From: Clostridia bacterium
Lineage (GTDB): Bacteria > Bacillota > Clostridia > UBA1212 > UBA1255
Direction: 5' to 3'
NCBI GenBank assembly: GCA_017620915.1
Contig: JAFZSK010000062.1
Span: 1 to 43,967, forward strand
DNA: 43,967 nucleotides
The position numbers and the translations under genes were made by a program. Under the pieces are notes generated by a model. The model was not told the DNA's origin and ran no database searches. It saw nothing but the letters and a program-made list of their open reading frames with translations. This document shows positions 5,001 to 38,808 of the stretch, piece after piece; the stretch's first letter is position 1, and each line of letters begins with the position of its first letter.

Positions 5001-8000
5001 TTCCTGCAGTGCATGAAAGTTTAACACTTCCGTCAGTCTGAGGCTCGACGGTACCCAATTGTATCCATGAGTTGCTAAGGTAATTAAACTCAGTGGCTGG
5101 GGTTTCGCCCTTAATCAGGCTGACGCCGTCAAAATAAACCGTCCCGAACATGTTCTGCAACGCGAGCTCAACAGTATATGTTCCCGGGGAAGAAAAAGTT
5201 TTTGTAACGTAAATCTGTCTCCAGCCATTCTGAACATTCGAGCCGGTGGCGCTTGTAATGATTTCTGACTTAGTATCGTCGAGGGCAATATATGCACCGT
5301 TTACCGCCGCCGGAGCTCCCATAATAAGAAAACTTGATTTAACATAAGCGCTTAGTGTATATATGCCCGAATCTGTGACGGTTACACTCTGAGACACTGT
5401 CCCGCTGCAGCTCAATGTTGCGCTTGAGAGAGATAATGACTTTGTGCCGAAAAGGAATTCCGACGAACTGACGGAGCATGTCACACTGCTTAAACTCTGT
5501 GTCCATTGGTATGTTGATTCAAGGTTCCCGTTGCCGATAAGATTCCTGCTGTACTGTCCTTTTCCTCCGGCCTTGGCTACAGAGTTGTTGGCTTTCGGAT
5601 TGGATGAAACGTTTAATTCGGTATACTCTGCAGCGGACGCGCCGTAAACTGTCTCACCCGAAAGGTCGGTGAGATAACTGCAGACAGTGTTTCCGTAGTT
5701 GTCGAAAAGGTATACAGATAGAAGATCATCGGCGTTTCCGTGGATATCATCTTTGCCGACGGTTCTGATAACCGCTTTTTTATGGTCGTACTGGAAAGTG
5801 TATTTACTGCCCAGATATGAATCGGAACCATATTGATGCAGTTCAGATACGCGTCCGTCATTTCCGAAGAAAAGGCGTGCATATGTCCCGTAAGTTGTGC
5901 CGTTCCCCTGCCTTATACGATACAGCTCATCATTGGAATTGTACTGGTACTCCGCAAAGTCGCCGTTCGAATATTCAATTTTGCGCAGGTACCCGGTGTT
6001 ATCCATCGACACGTCTCCGCTGCGTGTAGAAGAATAATAGATTTTAACGTATATACTTGAGTCTTTCGCATTAGTTATCTTTTTGACCGCATTCCCGGAG
6101 TTGTATGACAATATCAACTGCTGTTCGGCCGAAGACATGGTTTTGGATTGAAAACTTATACTATCTAAGCGGTTTGAGGCGTCGTAGTTAAAGATCTTTT
6201 TGTTGCCGTATTCATCATGGATGGCGGTTATTCTTCCGCTTGAATTAAAATACTTGACGTTGCCGTTGCTGTCGGATAACGAGTAGTAATACGGATCCAT
6301 CAAAAGATAATTGAATTTCAGGTCGTATCCGTCCTCCGACAGATATCCCAGATTCTGGTAATACCTGAAATACAGTTCGGTGCCGTCGGCGTCGTTGTAG
6401 CATATATATGAGACACCACTAATCGTCTTAAATGTCAGACTTTCCCAGCAGCTAAGCTTGAATCCGTAACCGGCCGATGCGTTGAAATTTGCTGTGACCG
6501 GTGCATTTTTATTAGTTGCAGACGGTACAAACTGAAGTCCGCTTAAGTAGCTGTTGTACACCGGAAATACGGAATATGGCAGTATCTCGTCCTGCGTGGA
6601 AAGACCGGGACCGACCAGGACATGTTTTCCGTTATACAGGTTTACATATACAGTGCCGGCTGTTCCGACGTCCTCTGAAGCAAAAGCCCAGCGACTCTCC
6701 AAACCCTTGGTGTCATAGTATGTGATGTAAAACGACGGGTTGGTAGTGGAAAACATCACATCGTCAGTCGATATGAACGTCGTAAATCCGTCATATTGCT
6801 CTGTAGCCGTCTGAAGTACTATGCCGTAGTTTGTATTGCTGTTTTCGTACCACTTCTGCATGCAGGAGGTAATATCAAAGTTAAGATAATGCTCGGCAGT
6901 GTCGGAGCTCGAGATAACGTAGTCGATCACCTTGTCCGAAAAAGAGGGCTGATTATTCCATGTCAGTGTTTCTTCTGCCCAGGCAGAGGTTACCTCCTTT
7001 GCGGTAACTGTAAGGGATGTGGTGTAAGTCGAGTTAAACGAATACCAATATCCGTTTTCGGCCTGCTGAAGCGATACGATCGCGGAAAGGATTCGTGACG
7101 CCTTCGGAATTTCCGGTAAGTTATTGATTCGAAAAAAAGAGCGAACCACATGAAGATTCGAATCGTTTGCAGCGTTACCAACGTGCATCAGATAATAATA
7201 ATTTGAATTGAAGTTCGGCAGCGCTTCTCTTATGTATGCATCGGAAACGTCGCCGTGAGTCGGACTGTCTGTAATGACTGTAGGGTCAATTACGACCGGG
7301 TATGCGCGGTCATCATTTTCTAGCCATTCAGGGTCCGGAGTTATAGTTAGTATATATCCGTCACCGATCTGTTCAAGGGTATATTCTACATCATTCGAGA
7401 CATCTCCCAGGGCATCGTACATATATGCGTGAGGAATGGTCGCTTCACCCAAATGGATGCAGCCTTCTTCATCAATGTATAATTCGCTATCAGTCGTAAC
7501 GGCAAATCTGAATGAAGAAGCTTCAGGAAGCGTTTCGAGAATTATGTTTTCTTTTACATTCTTTCCGTAGATGAGATATGAAACAGTGACGCCATCGAGA
7601 ATGCTGCAATACGACAGTTGTGATTTGGCTTTGGGCACGGCGAAAAGCTCGGCCGTTTTTGTGGCATATTCTTCTTTCGGCAGTTCGGAAATTTGTGCTT
7701 CGGCAGGCTGAAGATTATCACTTATGAGTTCAAAGCGTGCATTTACACCGTCAAAACTGATGCTATACGAGGGACGGTCAAAATCAAATGCCAGTTCGAT
7801 GTCTGAAAGAGTGGGTGTAAAGGAATCTCCTTTGCGAACAAGGGTGTTATCGTATTCTACGAAACCATCGGAAGTTTGAAAATGAATGTTGAAACCGTAC
7901 GAACCGAGAGTGTATGATCCGTCGTTGAGACGAAGAGTTTTGGAGTTTGATGTTCGCAGAGCGGAGTCTTCGAAGAGCGCGTCGATTGAATTGTTTACAT

Positions 8001-32891: not shown

Positions 32892-32906
32892 CGGGGTCTG
32901 TCCCCG
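32892..32906. repeat. GGGG-type palindromic repeat, gene-junction copy
   Basis: CGGGGTCTGTCCCCG, with 5-bp arms closing on TCTGT. It ends 2 bases before the stop codon of the DUF4038-type gene. The same 15-mer is at 34675-34689 and, with one extra G, at 34815-34830. Confidence 0.75.
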
Positions 32907-32908
32907 CG

Positions 32909-34786
32909 TTATTTGCGTCTTAACACCAGCACGAAATCGTGCGCTTCGGGGCGCTCCGGTGCTTTCCAGAGCGGGCCGCTGTCTGTATTGTCCGCCGTCA
33001 CGTCGCCGATGGCAATGTACGTATTTGTCACCGGATCGAACCACTTGGCCTCATAAGTCGCGCCTGCGACCATATTCCGCACGAAGCCGGAACCCTGATC
33101 CTGCGAATACAGATAAATTATATACAAGTCGCTGCCGATGGTGGCGCAGGCGTATGCCACCTGGCGTGTGGCCGCCTCGCCTTCCGGCTCCACCATATCC
33201 GGCGCGAAATGCGTCTGATCGTTGAAGTCCGGCACCAGATCCCACCAGCGGTACTGCTCGAAGAACTCGCGCATGTAGCCCTGCTGGTACGCGGATTCGA
33301 ACTCCACCGCCTCGCCCCAGTGGGTCGCTTTGTCCTGGGGCGTGATGATATCTACGCCGTCCTGGGACGTGGTAGTGGTATCGTACGAGCTCATATACAG
33401 CCACATGTCCACGGCGCCGTAGCCCACGCCCGCAAAGCCGGACAGCATCGCGATCCACGACTGCGCCCGCGCTCCGAAATCCTTGGTCCAGAGGTAGCAG
33501 TAGCGGCCTTCGTAGTTGATCGCGACTTTAGAACTGGCCCAGTAGTCCTTCGGCACAGAGTCATCGATCTGCTTCGTGATGCTCGGGCTCCACTGCGCGG
33601 CCCACCAGTTGTGCCCGGTCCGCTGCGTCACTTCGTCGGACAGGAACGCCGAGCGGCCGCCGTTCTCGACTTTTTCTTTCGTTCCCGCGCCGGTCACGGT
33701 GGTGTACGTGGTGTTCTCCTGGTGGCCGGAGAGCGGATGATGGTACGCGTCGTATTTGTTGATATATTCCGCCACGCGCACCCACGGGTTGGTCTCGGCG
33801 GTGTACAGTTTCTGATCGCCGCGCTCGTGGTAGAAGCTCTTGTCGATCTCCTGGCCCAGCGTCCACATGACCGGATACGCGGCATACCGCGCCACCCAGT
33901 AGCGGGTAATGGCTTCCAGGTATGCGTCATCGTTCATCACTTTCTTGTTCATTTCGCCGGCGAAGAAGAACTCGGCGTTGGCGTGGACAAGTCCTTTCTC
34001 GGCGATGTACTGATAATACCGGTCGTTCTGGCTGAACATCTTGGCGTCGGCGGAGGACAACGCGCCGTCCGTCAGGTTGGCGCTGGTGCCGATGGGTTCG
34101 GACTGGTACACGGTAAAGCCCTGCTCCACGCGTTTGTCGACAATATATTTAAAATGCGACTCGGCGCCCGTTTTCCCGGCGTGCGTGCCGGGCCGGTTGA
34201 ACTCCTCAGTGTACATGCCCCAGTGGGTGTCGCCCAGGTAGAAGAACGGCGTGCCGTCCGCGTACACGAAGTGTTTGCTGCCGTCCGTGGTGACAAAGCC
34301 GTGTTTGTAGATGTCCAGGTCGCCGCGGTACGGATTGGCCGCGATCGTGCCCTGTTTGCCGTCCAGTTCGGCGTCGCCGGAGCAGTATGTGGTGAACTCC
34401 CACACACCGTATTCGGTGGGGGCAAAGCGGAGGATGAACTCATTGCCGCTGTTCCAGAAGCCGGGGATGGTGAGTTTCGTGCCGGTGGCGCGGTTGGTGA
34501 ATTCGCCGCGGAAATCGGTGTACAGCTGATCGCCGGCTTTATTGTATTTAGTCTCCGACTCGAAGGTCAGATCAACGGCCACCCAGGTCTTCGTTTCGAA
34601 ATCAGTGGCCTCGGTGATGTCGTCGGGGAGCGTGACGGGGCGCGGGCCGGGGTTGTCAACGTCCGGCGCGTTTCCGGGGTCTGTCCCCGCCGGATCATTT
34701 CCTGCGCCGCCGCTCTTGCACGAGATCATCGCGAGAGGCACCAGCGCAGCCAGAAACAGCGTCAATATCCGATATGTCAGTTTCAT
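32909..34786 (-). CDS. DUF5060/DUF4038-type glycoside hydrolase lipoprotein
   Basis: A 625-residue surface lipoprotein (lipobox LAMISC). After a Gly/Pro/Asp linker, residues ~60-165 form a DUF5060-like beta-sandwich (WVAVDLTFES, IPGFWNSGNEFILRFAPTEYGVWEF). The centre is a DUF4038-like TIM barrel (FVYADGTPFFYLGDTHW, PVMWTLGQEID with its Glu as a catalytic candidate), followed by a C-terminal beta domain (ATYEAKWFDPVTNTYI). Relatives act on plant glycosides such as apiosides. The start at 34786 is chosen for position relative to the signal; GTGGTG lies upstream. The GGGG palindrome at 34675-34689 is read through as part of the linker (GTDPGN). It follows the GH99-like gene by 47 bp. Confidence 0.85.
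   Translation of the reverse strand: MKLTYRILTLFLAALVPLAMISCKSGGAGNDPAGTDPGNAPDVDNPGPRPVTLPDDITEATDFETKTWVAVDLTFESETKYNKAGDQLYTDFRGEFTNRATGTKLTIPGFWNSGNEFILRFAPTEYGVWEFTTYCSGDAELDGKQGTIAANPYRGDLDIYKHGFVTTDGSKHFVYADGTPFFYLGDTHWGMYTEEFNRPGTHAGKTGAESHFKYIVDKRVEQGFTVYQSEPIGTSANLTDGALSSADAKMFSQNDRYYQYIAEKGLVHANAEFFFAGEMNKKVMNDDAYLEAITRYWVARYAAYPVMWTLGQEIDKSFYHERGDQKLYTAETNPWVRVAEYINKYDAYHHPLSGHQENTTYTTVTGAGTKEKVENGGRSAFLSDEVTQRTGHNWWAAQWSPSITKQIDDSVPKDYWASSKVAINYEGRYCYLWTKDFGARAQSWIAMLSGFAGVGYGAVDMWLYMSSYDTTTTSQDGVDIITPQDKATHWGEAVEFESAYQQGYMREFFEQYRWWDLVPDFNDQTHFAPDMVEPEGEAATRQVAYACATIGSDLYIIYLYSQDQGSGFVRNMVAGATYEAKWFDPVTNTYIAIGDVTADNTDSGPLWKAPERPEAHDFVLVLRRK
34675..34689. repeat. GGGG-type palindromic repeat, coding-linker copy
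   Basis: CGGGGTCTGTCCCCG lies inside the DUF4038-type gene and encodes part of its post-signal linker (residues GTDPG), where sequence constraint is low. Identical to 32892-32906. Confidence 0.75.
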
Positions 34787-34814
34787 TCGCGTCACCACTT
34801 TTCGAGGATCTATT

Positions 34815-34830
34815 CGGGGGTCTGTCCCCG
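34815..34830. repeat. GGGG-type palindromic repeat, second gene-junction copy
   Basis: CGGGGGTCTGTCCCCG, the same palindrome with one extra G, lies in the 47-bp gap between the GH99-like gene's stop and the DUF4038-type gene's start. Confidence 0.75.
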
Positions 34831-36393: not shown

Positions 36394-37860
36394 ATGAAAA
36401 AATTGAAATTGACCACGCTGTTGTTCCGGTCGATCCCCTCGCCGGTGGTGGCGTTGTTCGTGGTGTCAGTCATCACCATGAACCTGCTAGCCAACAAAAC
36501 GCTGGTCCAGACGCGCTTTCTCGCGCTTGACGGCGGCATACTGGTGTCGTGGCTGTCGTTTCTGTGCATGGACGTTGTCACCAAACACTTCGGTCCGCGC
36601 GCGGCGACTAAAATGTCGATCTTCGCCATCGGCGCCAACCTCCTCGCCTGCCTGATATTCTTCGTTGTCAGCATCATCCCGACCCCGGGCATCGACGCGG
36701 ATTACACGGCGTTCAACTCGATCTTCGGCGGCACCTGGTTCATCCTGCTGAGCAGCACGGTGGCGTTTTTCCTGTCGTCACTGATCAACAATTTCCTGAA
36801 TTTCGCGGTGGGCGCGCTGTTCCGCCGGGATCCCGACGGCCGGACCGCGTTCTTCGTGCGCAGCTACGTTTCGACGTTCGTGGGTCAGTTCGCGGACAAC
36901 CTCATCTTCTCCGTCCTCACCTTCATGCTGTTCGCGCCGATATTCTGGGACGGCTTCCACTGGACATTCATTCAGTGCGTCACCTGCGCGGTGCTGGGGG
37001 CAATACTCGAACTCCTGATGGAGGCCGCGTTCTCGCCGCTGGGCTATCTGATCTGCCGCAAATGGACGAAGGACAACGTGGGCGCCGAATATTTTGCCGC
37101 CGAAGCCGCGCTGTTCGGCAAGGCAAAATTAAGCAAGGGGTCAGACCCCGTTTTAAACACGGGGTCTGACCCGGTGTCAACGGATCACGCTCCGCTGAAG
37201 GTGCTGATCACCGGAACGGCGAGGGGCATCGGCCGCGCCGCCGCGCTGAAGTATTTGAATGAGGGGTGCGATGTGGTCGGCATTGACCGGCAGCCGGGCA
37301 CCATCGACCATCCTGCGTACACGCATTACGTAGCGGACGTGGCGGACGCGGGAACGCTGCCGGATATCGACCCCGCGCCTGAAATCATTTTTATCAACGC
37401 GGGCGTGCAGAACTCCGGGGCGGACATTGACGTAAACCTCCGCGGCGCCATCAACGTCACCGAAAAATACGCGTTTCAGCCGCGCATCCGCGCCGTGCTG
37501 TTCAACGCCTCCGCCTCCGCCCGGAGCGGGTTCGAGTTTCCGGAATACGTAGCCTCCAAAGCCGGCGTAGTGGGTTACATGAAAAATGTGGCGGTGCGGC
37601 TGGCGGAGTACGGTGCAGTTGCCAACGCTGTCTCGCCGGGGGGCGTATTGACCGAATCGAACCGGCCGGTCACGGACGATCCCGAGCTGTGGGCGCAGAT
37701 AATGGCCGCGACCCCGCTCAAAAAATGGCTGACCGAAGACGAACTCGCGGAGTGGATCTGGTTCCTGACCGCGGTCAACCGCTCCGCCAGCGGCGTGGAC
37801 GTGCTGGTGGACAACGGCGAACTGGCCCTGAACTCCACGTTCGTGTGGCCGAAAAACTGA
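36394..37860 (+). CDS. Queuosine-precursor transporter (VUT/YhhQ type) fused to a short-chain dehydrogenase
   Basis: A 488-residue fusion. Residues 1-245 form a multi-pass VUT-family transporter of normal length (VSVITMNLLANKTL, ALDGGILVSWLSFLCMDVVTKHFGPRAA, FVGQFADNLIFS), which imports queuine or preQ1-type precursors. Residues ~268-488 form a complete SDR domain: cofactor motif TGTARGIG, FINAGVQN, catalytic Ser in NASASARSG and YVASK. The linker (KGSDPVLNTGSDPVSTD) is encoded by a 13-bp palindromic DNA repeat. No internal start with a ribosome binding site precedes the SDR, so it appears to be made only as a fusion. AAGGAG lies 9 bases before the ATG. The SDR substrate is unknown. Confidence 0.9.
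   Translation: MKKLKLTTLLFRSIPSPVVALFVVSVITMNLLANKTLVQTRFLALDGGILVSWLSFLCMDVVTKHFGPRAATKMSIFAIGANLLACLIFFVVSIIPTPGIDADYTAFNSIFGGTWFILLSSTVAFFLSSLINNFLNFAVGALFRRDPDGRTAFFVRSYVSTFVGQFADNLIFSVLTFMLFAPIFWDGFHWTFIQCVTCAVLGAILELLMEAAFSPLGYLICRKWTKDNVGAEYFAAEAALFGKAKLSKGSDPVLNTGSDPVSTDHAPLKVLITGTARGIGRAAALKYLNEGCDVVGIDRQPGTIDHPAYTHYVADVADAGTLPDIDPAPEIIFINAGVQNSGADIDVNLRGAINVTEKYAFQPRIRAVLFNASASARSGFEFPEYVASKAGVVGYMKNVAVRLAEYGAVANAVSPGGVLTESNRPVTDDPELWAQIMAATPLKKWLTEDELAEWIWFLTAVNRSASGVDVLVDNGELALNSTFVWPKN
37138..37172. repeat. GGGGTCAGACCCC palindromic repeat inside the fusion gene
   Basis: GGGTCAGACCCCG (37138-37150) is perfectly mirrored by CGGGGTCTGACCC (37160-37172) around a 9-base loop. It encodes the inter-domain linker. 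Related to, but longer than, the palindromes at 32.9, 34.7 and 34.8 kb. Confidence 0.9.
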
Positions 37861-37875
37861 CATGAGGTGTAACAG

Positions 37876-38808
37876 ATGTCAACTTTCATGATCGCGCTGA
37901 CCAACGTGCTGGTGATGCTGGCGTGCATCGTACCCGGCTTCGTGCTGTGCAAATGCAAAAAAGCGTTCGCGGACCACATTCCCACCGTTTCGGCGATCCT
38001 GGTCTACATCGGCACGCCGTTCCTGGAACTGAGCGCGTTTTCGTCGCTCAAGTACGAGCGCGGGCATCTGGCGCAGATGGGTCTGTTCTTTATCGTGTCG
38101 TTCGCGGCGCAGCTGGTGTTCTGCCTGATTGTGTACGGGCTCGCCGGAAAACGGTGGGCGGAGGCCGATTCGCGGCTGGTGAGCGTTGCCGCCGTGCTGG
38201 GCAACGTGGGTTTCTTCGGCCTCCCCGTGGTCCGCGCGCTGCTGCCGGACAATCCACTCGCCGTCTGCTGCACCACGATGTTCATCGTGTCGATGAACAT
38301 ACTCACCTTCACGCTAGGCGTGTTCCTGCTCACCGGGGACAAACGCCACATCTCGGTCCGGTCCGCGCTGGTCAATCCGGCCACCGTCGGCCTGCTCATC
38401 TCCTTGCCCTTCTACTTTTTCGGCTGGGGCGCGCAGCTGCCCGCGGCGGTGACGTCAATGATCTCCGGCATCGCCAACATGACCGCCCCGCTCTGCATGT
38501 TCGTCGTGGGCATGCGCCTGGCCGCGTCCGAGCTGGGCAAGCTTTTCATCCGTCCTAAAGTATATATCGCCGTGGCACTGAAACTCGTGGCGTTCCCGCT
38601 GTTCTGCTACGTTCTGCTGCTGCCGGTGCCGCTGCCGGCGGCGCTGCGCTTCACGCTGGTGATCCTGGCGGCAACGCCCTGCGCCTCCCACGTGCTGAAC
38701 TTCTCCGAGCTGTACCGCACGCGCCCCGACCTCGCGGCCAACTGCATCCTGATCTCCACGATCTTCTGCTTCCTGACGCTGCCGCTGTTTACGCTGCTGC
38801 CGTTTTGA
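37876..38808 (+). CDS. AEC-family (auxin efflux carrier type) permease
   Basis: A 310-residue permease with about ten membrane segments and the internal 5+5 pattern of the AEC family. Typical features are the N-terminal PGFVLCKCKK, the central GNVGFFGLPVVRALL before a broken helix, and the ATPCASHVLNFSELY segment in the second half. Bacterial members move organic acids or amino acids out of or into the cell; the substrate cannot be read from sequence. It starts 15 bp after the fusion gene with GAGGTG before the ATG, so it is likely co-transcribed with it. The -35 box of the next gene's promoter overlaps its stop codon. Confidence 0.9.
   Translation: MSTFMIALTNVLVMLACIVPGFVLCKCKKAFADHIPTVSAILVYIGTPFLELSAFSSLKYERGHLAQMGLFFIVSFAAQLVFCLIVYGLAGKRWAEADSRLVSVAAVLGNVGFFGLPVVRALLPDNPLAVCCTTMFIVSMNILTFTLGVFLLTGDKRHISVRSALVNPATVGLLISLPFYFFGWGAQLPAAVTSMISGIANMTAPLCMFVVGMRLAASELGKLFIRPKVYIAVALKLVAFPLFCYVLLLPVPLPAALRFTLVILAATPCASHVLNFSELYRTRPDLAANCILISTIFCFLTLPLFTLLPF

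Follow-up and report, generated by a model that had tools for sequence, protein, structure and literature searches.

The intragenic GTAG/CGTC REPs described by Di Nocera et al. (2013; PMC3733652) are short palindromic repeats which lie, as single units or dimers, in frame inside ordinary genes, and their tolerance there is put down to positions in linkers or loops; as to gene fusion, the main text of that paper contains no word that starts with 'fus'. The mobile palindromes of about 150 bp known as Rickettsia palindromic elements (Ogata et al. 2000; outlined in the review PMC10969869) also lie in frame in protein-coding genes. The joining of neighbouring genes by a REP was not found in the papers searched, which are a limited set. 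On the protein side, the fusion of a queuosine-precursor transporter (QPTR) to the queuosine (Q) enzyme bTGT is already known (PMC11130926). The initial annotation of the locus studied here knew of no described VUT-SDR enzyme, and likewise no description of one was found in the papers searched.

The locus lies in a 43,967-nucleotide stretch of DNA (hereafter the window) from a Clostridia bacterium whose genome is described as gut-type, and the importer it encodes is of a type that takes up a vitamin-like precursor. Positions 36394-37860 form a single ORF of 488 amino acids with an ATG start, an SD-like AAGGAG upstream and zero internal stops, in which an 18-residue linker connects a complete VUT/QPTR transporter to the complete short-chain dehydrogenase (SDR) of the classical type that follows it. 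The transporter half (COG1738, PF02592; residues 1-245, 36394..37128, plus strand) was delimited with Pfam, TIGR00697 and AlphaFold; its Vut_1 match covers residues 46-220 and the whole profile (1-152/152) with an E value of 4.5e-25 and 89.2 bits against a cut-off of 27.2, and the model for queuosine precursor transporters, TIGR00697, gives 52.7 bits against 50.95. The FabG-like SDR half (residues 264-488, 37183..37857, plus strand; Pfam and Foldseek) has an adh_short_C2/adh_short match at residues 345-475 (E 2e-19), and the features of a classical SDR (PF00106/PF13561) are found in it, namely the HMM match, TGxxxGxG, YxxxK and a Rossmann fold, the motifs themselves reading TGTARGIG, NAG and YVASK. 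The catalytic Ser and Tyr of an SDR are usually about 13 residues apart. A Ser-rich NASAS stands 10-12 residues ahead of the Tyr here, and because of this spacing the catalytic Ser is only likely to lie within NASAS, which we regard as its candidate position. Thus, what the initial annotation said of an intact transporter and SDR in one frame stands for the open frame, both domains, TGxxxGxG and YxxxK, while the Ser that it also called intact has a candidate in NASAS.

In the AlphaFold model (38 sequences) there are two confident domains, and pLDDT falls below 50 only at residues 246-263, the disordered stretch made up of the repeat-coded part plus the residues directly after it. The VUT half is modelled as helices with pLDDT about 90, and the fold of the SDR half is nearest to the FabG 4nbt and to 2,3-dihydro-2,3-dihydroxybenzoate dehydrogenase (TMt about 0.7, Foldseek), among many similar SDRs. 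Positive residues are frequent in the VUT N-terminus and in the VUT C-terminal tail, which, by the positive-inside rule only, is consistent with a cytoplasmic location of the SDR. Purifying selection acts on both halves, dN/dS being about 0.14 (VUT) and 0.11 (SDR). Downstream of the fusion there is a separate ORF with its own SD (37876..38808, plus strand) for an AEC-type Mem_trans carrier, a neighbour conserved in the genus only (cluster c4: L039, L045-L048). A riboswitch scan of the window with Rfam found none, and returned only two tRNAs.

The linker is encoded by a REP-like doublet (37129..37176, plus strand) that codes KGSDPVLNTGSDPV. It consists of two direct 24-bp repeats, 37129-37152 and 37153-37176, each with a near-palindromic core GGGGTCWGACCCS, and it is because two adjacent copies of such a core stand side by side that a long hairpin forms at the joint: the inverted-repeat arms 37138-37154 and 37156-37172 are each 17 nt long and 94% complementary, their 13 outer pairs being perfect, and the RNA fold has -32.2 kcal/mol (z = -5.3). 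The 13-bp palindrome that had been reported at 37138-37172, at the joint and translated, is therefore confirmed by its arms and its translation, and can now be described more exactly as a tandem doublet, with 24-bp units, of a REP-like element whose core is GGGGWCWGWCCCC. In the phase used by the VUT-SDR frame the doublet is stop-free and codes LSKGSDPVLNTGSDPV; the other two phases contain stops, and the 48-bp unit keeps the frame. Right after the second core there is a possible internal GTG start (37174..37176, plus strand), with a weak SD-like GGGG nearby inside the hairpin. This raises the possibility that translation from the repeat-borne GTG yields mainly free SDR in the cell, the pair staying functionally bicistronic. 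The anti-SD match of GGGG, -5.7 kcal/mol, falls within the range of the relatives' SDR starts (-5.4 to -11.5), but the region lies in or beside the -32 kcal/mol hairpin, the sole in-frame start near the joint in the fused sister species is a TTG inside the linker, and the VUT part has no stop, so that read-through must still yield the fusion. We regard mainly free SDR as rather unlikely, and fused and free SDR may both exist because the element could give internal initiation.

Comparison with related genomes shows what the two halves are elsewhere. Among the 80 best related loci of Clostridia and Bacilli (GTDB genomes), 78 have VUT and SDR side by side, a share which is not an unbiased frequency because the locus ranking favours loci with both halves, and in 77 of these 78 they are two separate genes. 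In 31 loci, among them those of all five genus members without the fusion, the SDR start and the VUT stop overlap by 4 nt (ATGA). The other neighbours of the pair vary among loci; a lone VUT was seen in L091, L098, G024, G025 and G030, and a lone SDR in G055. Two loci considered as further fusions, L082 and L087, were rejected since VUT and SDR are in different frames there. The only second fused case is that of a sister species (locus L039, the same as L010, of genome G003), whose linker region is of 55 residues with two exact GGGGACAGACCCC cores; it groups with the window in both trees (support 99/99 for SDR and 87/88 for VUT). Because its linker is longer and carries another core variant, one fusion with later linker turnover and two separate events are both possible. 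A search of 398 sampled genomes of the phylum for further fusions returned only the fusion of the window's own genome and one lone SDR, and an order-wide search found only G003. By this gene order, VUT and SDR are an old, conserved operonic pair. A separate SDR with its own start in close relatives had been named beforehand as an observation that would speak against the fusion; it is what 77 of 78 relatives have, and it gives the ancestral state, while the fusion itself stands in the window.

The genome of the window is a draft assembly of 121 contigs, and palindromes can be misread, so a lost base or a collapsed repeat could in principle have joined two frames at the palindrome. However, such an assembly or sequencing artefact is very improbable, because the element, at about 50 bp, is far below the usual read length and the separately assembled sister species is also fused, with a different linker; in addition, the VUT-SDR frame encodes at the joint the GxDP peptide that is usual in other in-frame copies of the repeat.

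The junction reads ...AAATGA... in the relatives and ...AAAAT followed directly by TAAGCAAGGGGTCAGACCCC... in the window, and insertion at the stop/start overlap would most simply account for this difference. Taken together, we consider it likely that a mobile REP-like palindrome fused the conserved VUT and SDR neighbours, the fusion probably being a tolerated by-product of the insertion and not a selected tether. The ancestral state would be a two-gene unit, VUT and then SDR, with stop and start overlapping in ATGA; the REP-like element would have been inserted at this junction, by which the VUT stop and the SDR start would have been lost, and one continuous frame would result because the phase used has no stop in the element and each unit of the doublet, at 24 bp, is 8 codons long. 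In the product, a folded SDR of NAD(P) type, most likely cytoplasmic, would be attached to the C-terminal tail of a membrane importer by a disordered Gly-Ser-Asp-Pro linker. The initial suggestion that two neighbouring genes were fused by the insertion of a mobile palindromic repeat has good support in the separate adjacent genes of relatives and the high-copy REP-like joint, and also in the occurrence of the same REP family at other gene joints of the genome.

The repeat is abundant. The window has 16 matches against 2.6 expected, and exact GGGGWCWGWCCCC cores number 69 in the whole genome, against 0 for the reversed-pattern control. Within the genus, the exact core is found 88 times in the fused sister (G003), 59 times in G002 and 189 times, the genus maximum, in G005, and G002 and G005 are repeat-rich yet have VUT and SDR as separate genes. 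The REP-poor members G001, G004 and G006, with 1-2 exact cores each, are also unfused, and other genera of the family have 0-2. In 39 fetched genome stretches plus the window, the flanks of the core are T-rich and A-rich, about TTTTnAACA-GGGGACAGACCCC-GTTTTnAAAA, and 9 of 13 close core pairs are spaced exactly 24 bp. The features of a REP element are thus seen here: a short palindrome, high copy number (69 exact), dimers (9 pairs at 24 bp) and a hairpin. Moreover, there is one Y1_Tnp gene (G000:C76:13234), to which the RAYT model NF047646 gives E 4e-21 and 75.4 bits, just under the cut-off of 80, and on either side degenerate cores lie within about 250 nt of the gene; judged from its sequence the gene is RAYT-like, and it is by the nearby cores only that it would be linked to the GGGGWCWGWCCCC repeat. 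In a survey of about 149 kb picked for REP content, not a random genome sample, 25 of 70 REP sites are read through in frame and 45 are between genes or at edges, according to a coding-score scan trained partly on the same genes as it scored.

Other copies illustrate both situations. In the window, a core (34676..34688) is read in frame as AGTDP just past the lipobox of an apiosidase-like lipoprotein (32909-34798, minus strand), another (34817..34829) lies between this gene and a WbsX-like gene, and a third (32893..32905) is immediately downstream of the apiosidase-like gene. In L148 (G000:C93:9700-12700, core at 1468), MiaB and a GH127 glycosidase, a beta-L-arabinofuranosidase-like domain, are in one frame via a REP doublet at residue 489; the MiaB part is complete, residues 40-484 aligning to 18-452 of the 457 residues of solved MiaB. 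In L167:4827-5888 (minus strand, core at 5301), NUDIX and GNAT domains share a frame with a REP doublet at the joint. In-frame REPs also occur within GH95, GH3, a MurD-like ligase, a beta-lactamase-like protein and others, usually coding the peptide GxDP, as at the VUT-SDR joint, and the Mur ligase core falls in a stretch unaligned to PDB relatives. Three candidates were not counted: a SASA-AlkD frame in L169, since its joint is seamless and without a REP; the GMP synthase core in L158, which adds no length relative to a solved relative and so is not a clear insertion; and the class-V aminotransferase core in L167 (phase 0, GVRP), which may be native sequence. The first of these frames (L169:800-2233, minus strand) joins a sialate-esterase-like (SASA) part to an AlkD-like DNA alkylation repair part, and two cores coding GTDP lie within its esterase. 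A further species of the genus has a separate SDR (L047:5783-6547) with a 30-residue extra loop in which a decayed REP core GGGGACAGACTTG lies. As a tentative generalisation, which we hold somewhat short of even, the 24-bp REP doublet in this genus may act as a stop-erasing, frame-keeping linker that, as it spreads, repeatedly makes multidomain proteins out of neighbouring co-directional genes (VUT-SDR, MiaB-GH127, NUDIX-GNAT); for REP elements, such an origin of new fusion proteins was not found in the papers searched.

As for function, the genome has tgt and queA, and the fusion is its sole VUT; QueF and QueT were not found in it, and QueC gave weak model hits only, probably to other PP-loop ATPases, these absences being uncertain because the genome is about 97% complete. 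Since tgt and queA are present and QueF and QueT absent, the VUT half most likely imports preQ1, judging from genome content and the established pathway, and the SDR may act in the same salvage or in a linked pathway. None of TGT, QueA, QueT and QueF was found near the pair in the fetched loci, and nucleoside hydrolases near it (3 loci plus G055) are too few to judge. In G055, whose genome has QueT and no close VUT, an SDR homologue of 52% identity (L025, 1504-3645) adjoins an ECF S-component-like gene and a nucleoside hydrolase, the ECF matches being below the Pfam cut-offs. QrtT (PF12822) and QueK are tied to Q salvage (PMC11130926), and this neighbourhood is a lead for placing the SDR in Q salvage. 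It also bears on another explanation, in which the fusion is a selected bifunctional protein whose SDR modifies a queuosine-related substrate on entry, the REP having given a useful linker. The conservation of the VUT-SDR pairing although other neighbours vary, and the keeping of the fusion under purifying selection in two species, are in its favour as well, but the genes are kept separate in all relatives with both halves except the sister, the G055 neighbourhood is one convergent example, and a functional reason for the fusion is unneeded because the same REP joins the functionally unrelated MiaB and GH127; we think such selection improbable. The further suggestion in the initial annotation, an SDR that acts on a queuosine-related precursor and is tethered to its importer, has support for one half only: the association of VUT and SDR holds, conserved as separate genes, whereas there is no sign that the tethering was selected. 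We therefore keep to fusion by REP insertion, probably as a tolerated by-product.

At this locus the molecular cause of a gene fusion is visible: relatives show the two-gene state, a repeat stands at the joint and the sister species provides a second example. Should the other REP joints also hold in comparison with relatives, domain fusion in bacteria would have a concrete source in small palindromic repeats. In that case 'Rosetta stone' inference in REP-rich genomes would call for caution, because genes of unrelated function can, as in MiaB-GH127, be joined by the same means. Furthermore, the VUT-SDR gene pair is widespread, no description of it was found in the papers searched, and it is a candidate step of queuosine-precursor salvage.

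In comparison with known systems, the VUT half belongs to the QPTR/COG1738 (YhhQ) queuosine-precursor transporters, and the partner in the Clostridia fusion is an SDR, unlike the bTGT of the known QPTR fusions (PMC11130926). The repeat resembles REP/RAYT systems (PMC2817692, PMC3116915) in being high-copy and tandem and in having one RAYT-like transposase gene with cores nearby; the difference is that the RAYT-like score is just under the NCBIfam cut-off and mobilisation of the core is putative. Compared with the Rickettsia elements, of about 150 bp as given in the review (PMC10969869), the Clostridia unit is of 24 bp, single or doublet, and joins two genes. Compared with the GTAG/CGTC REPs, the Clostridia element has another core (GGGGWCWGWCCCC), and some of its doublets join two genes.
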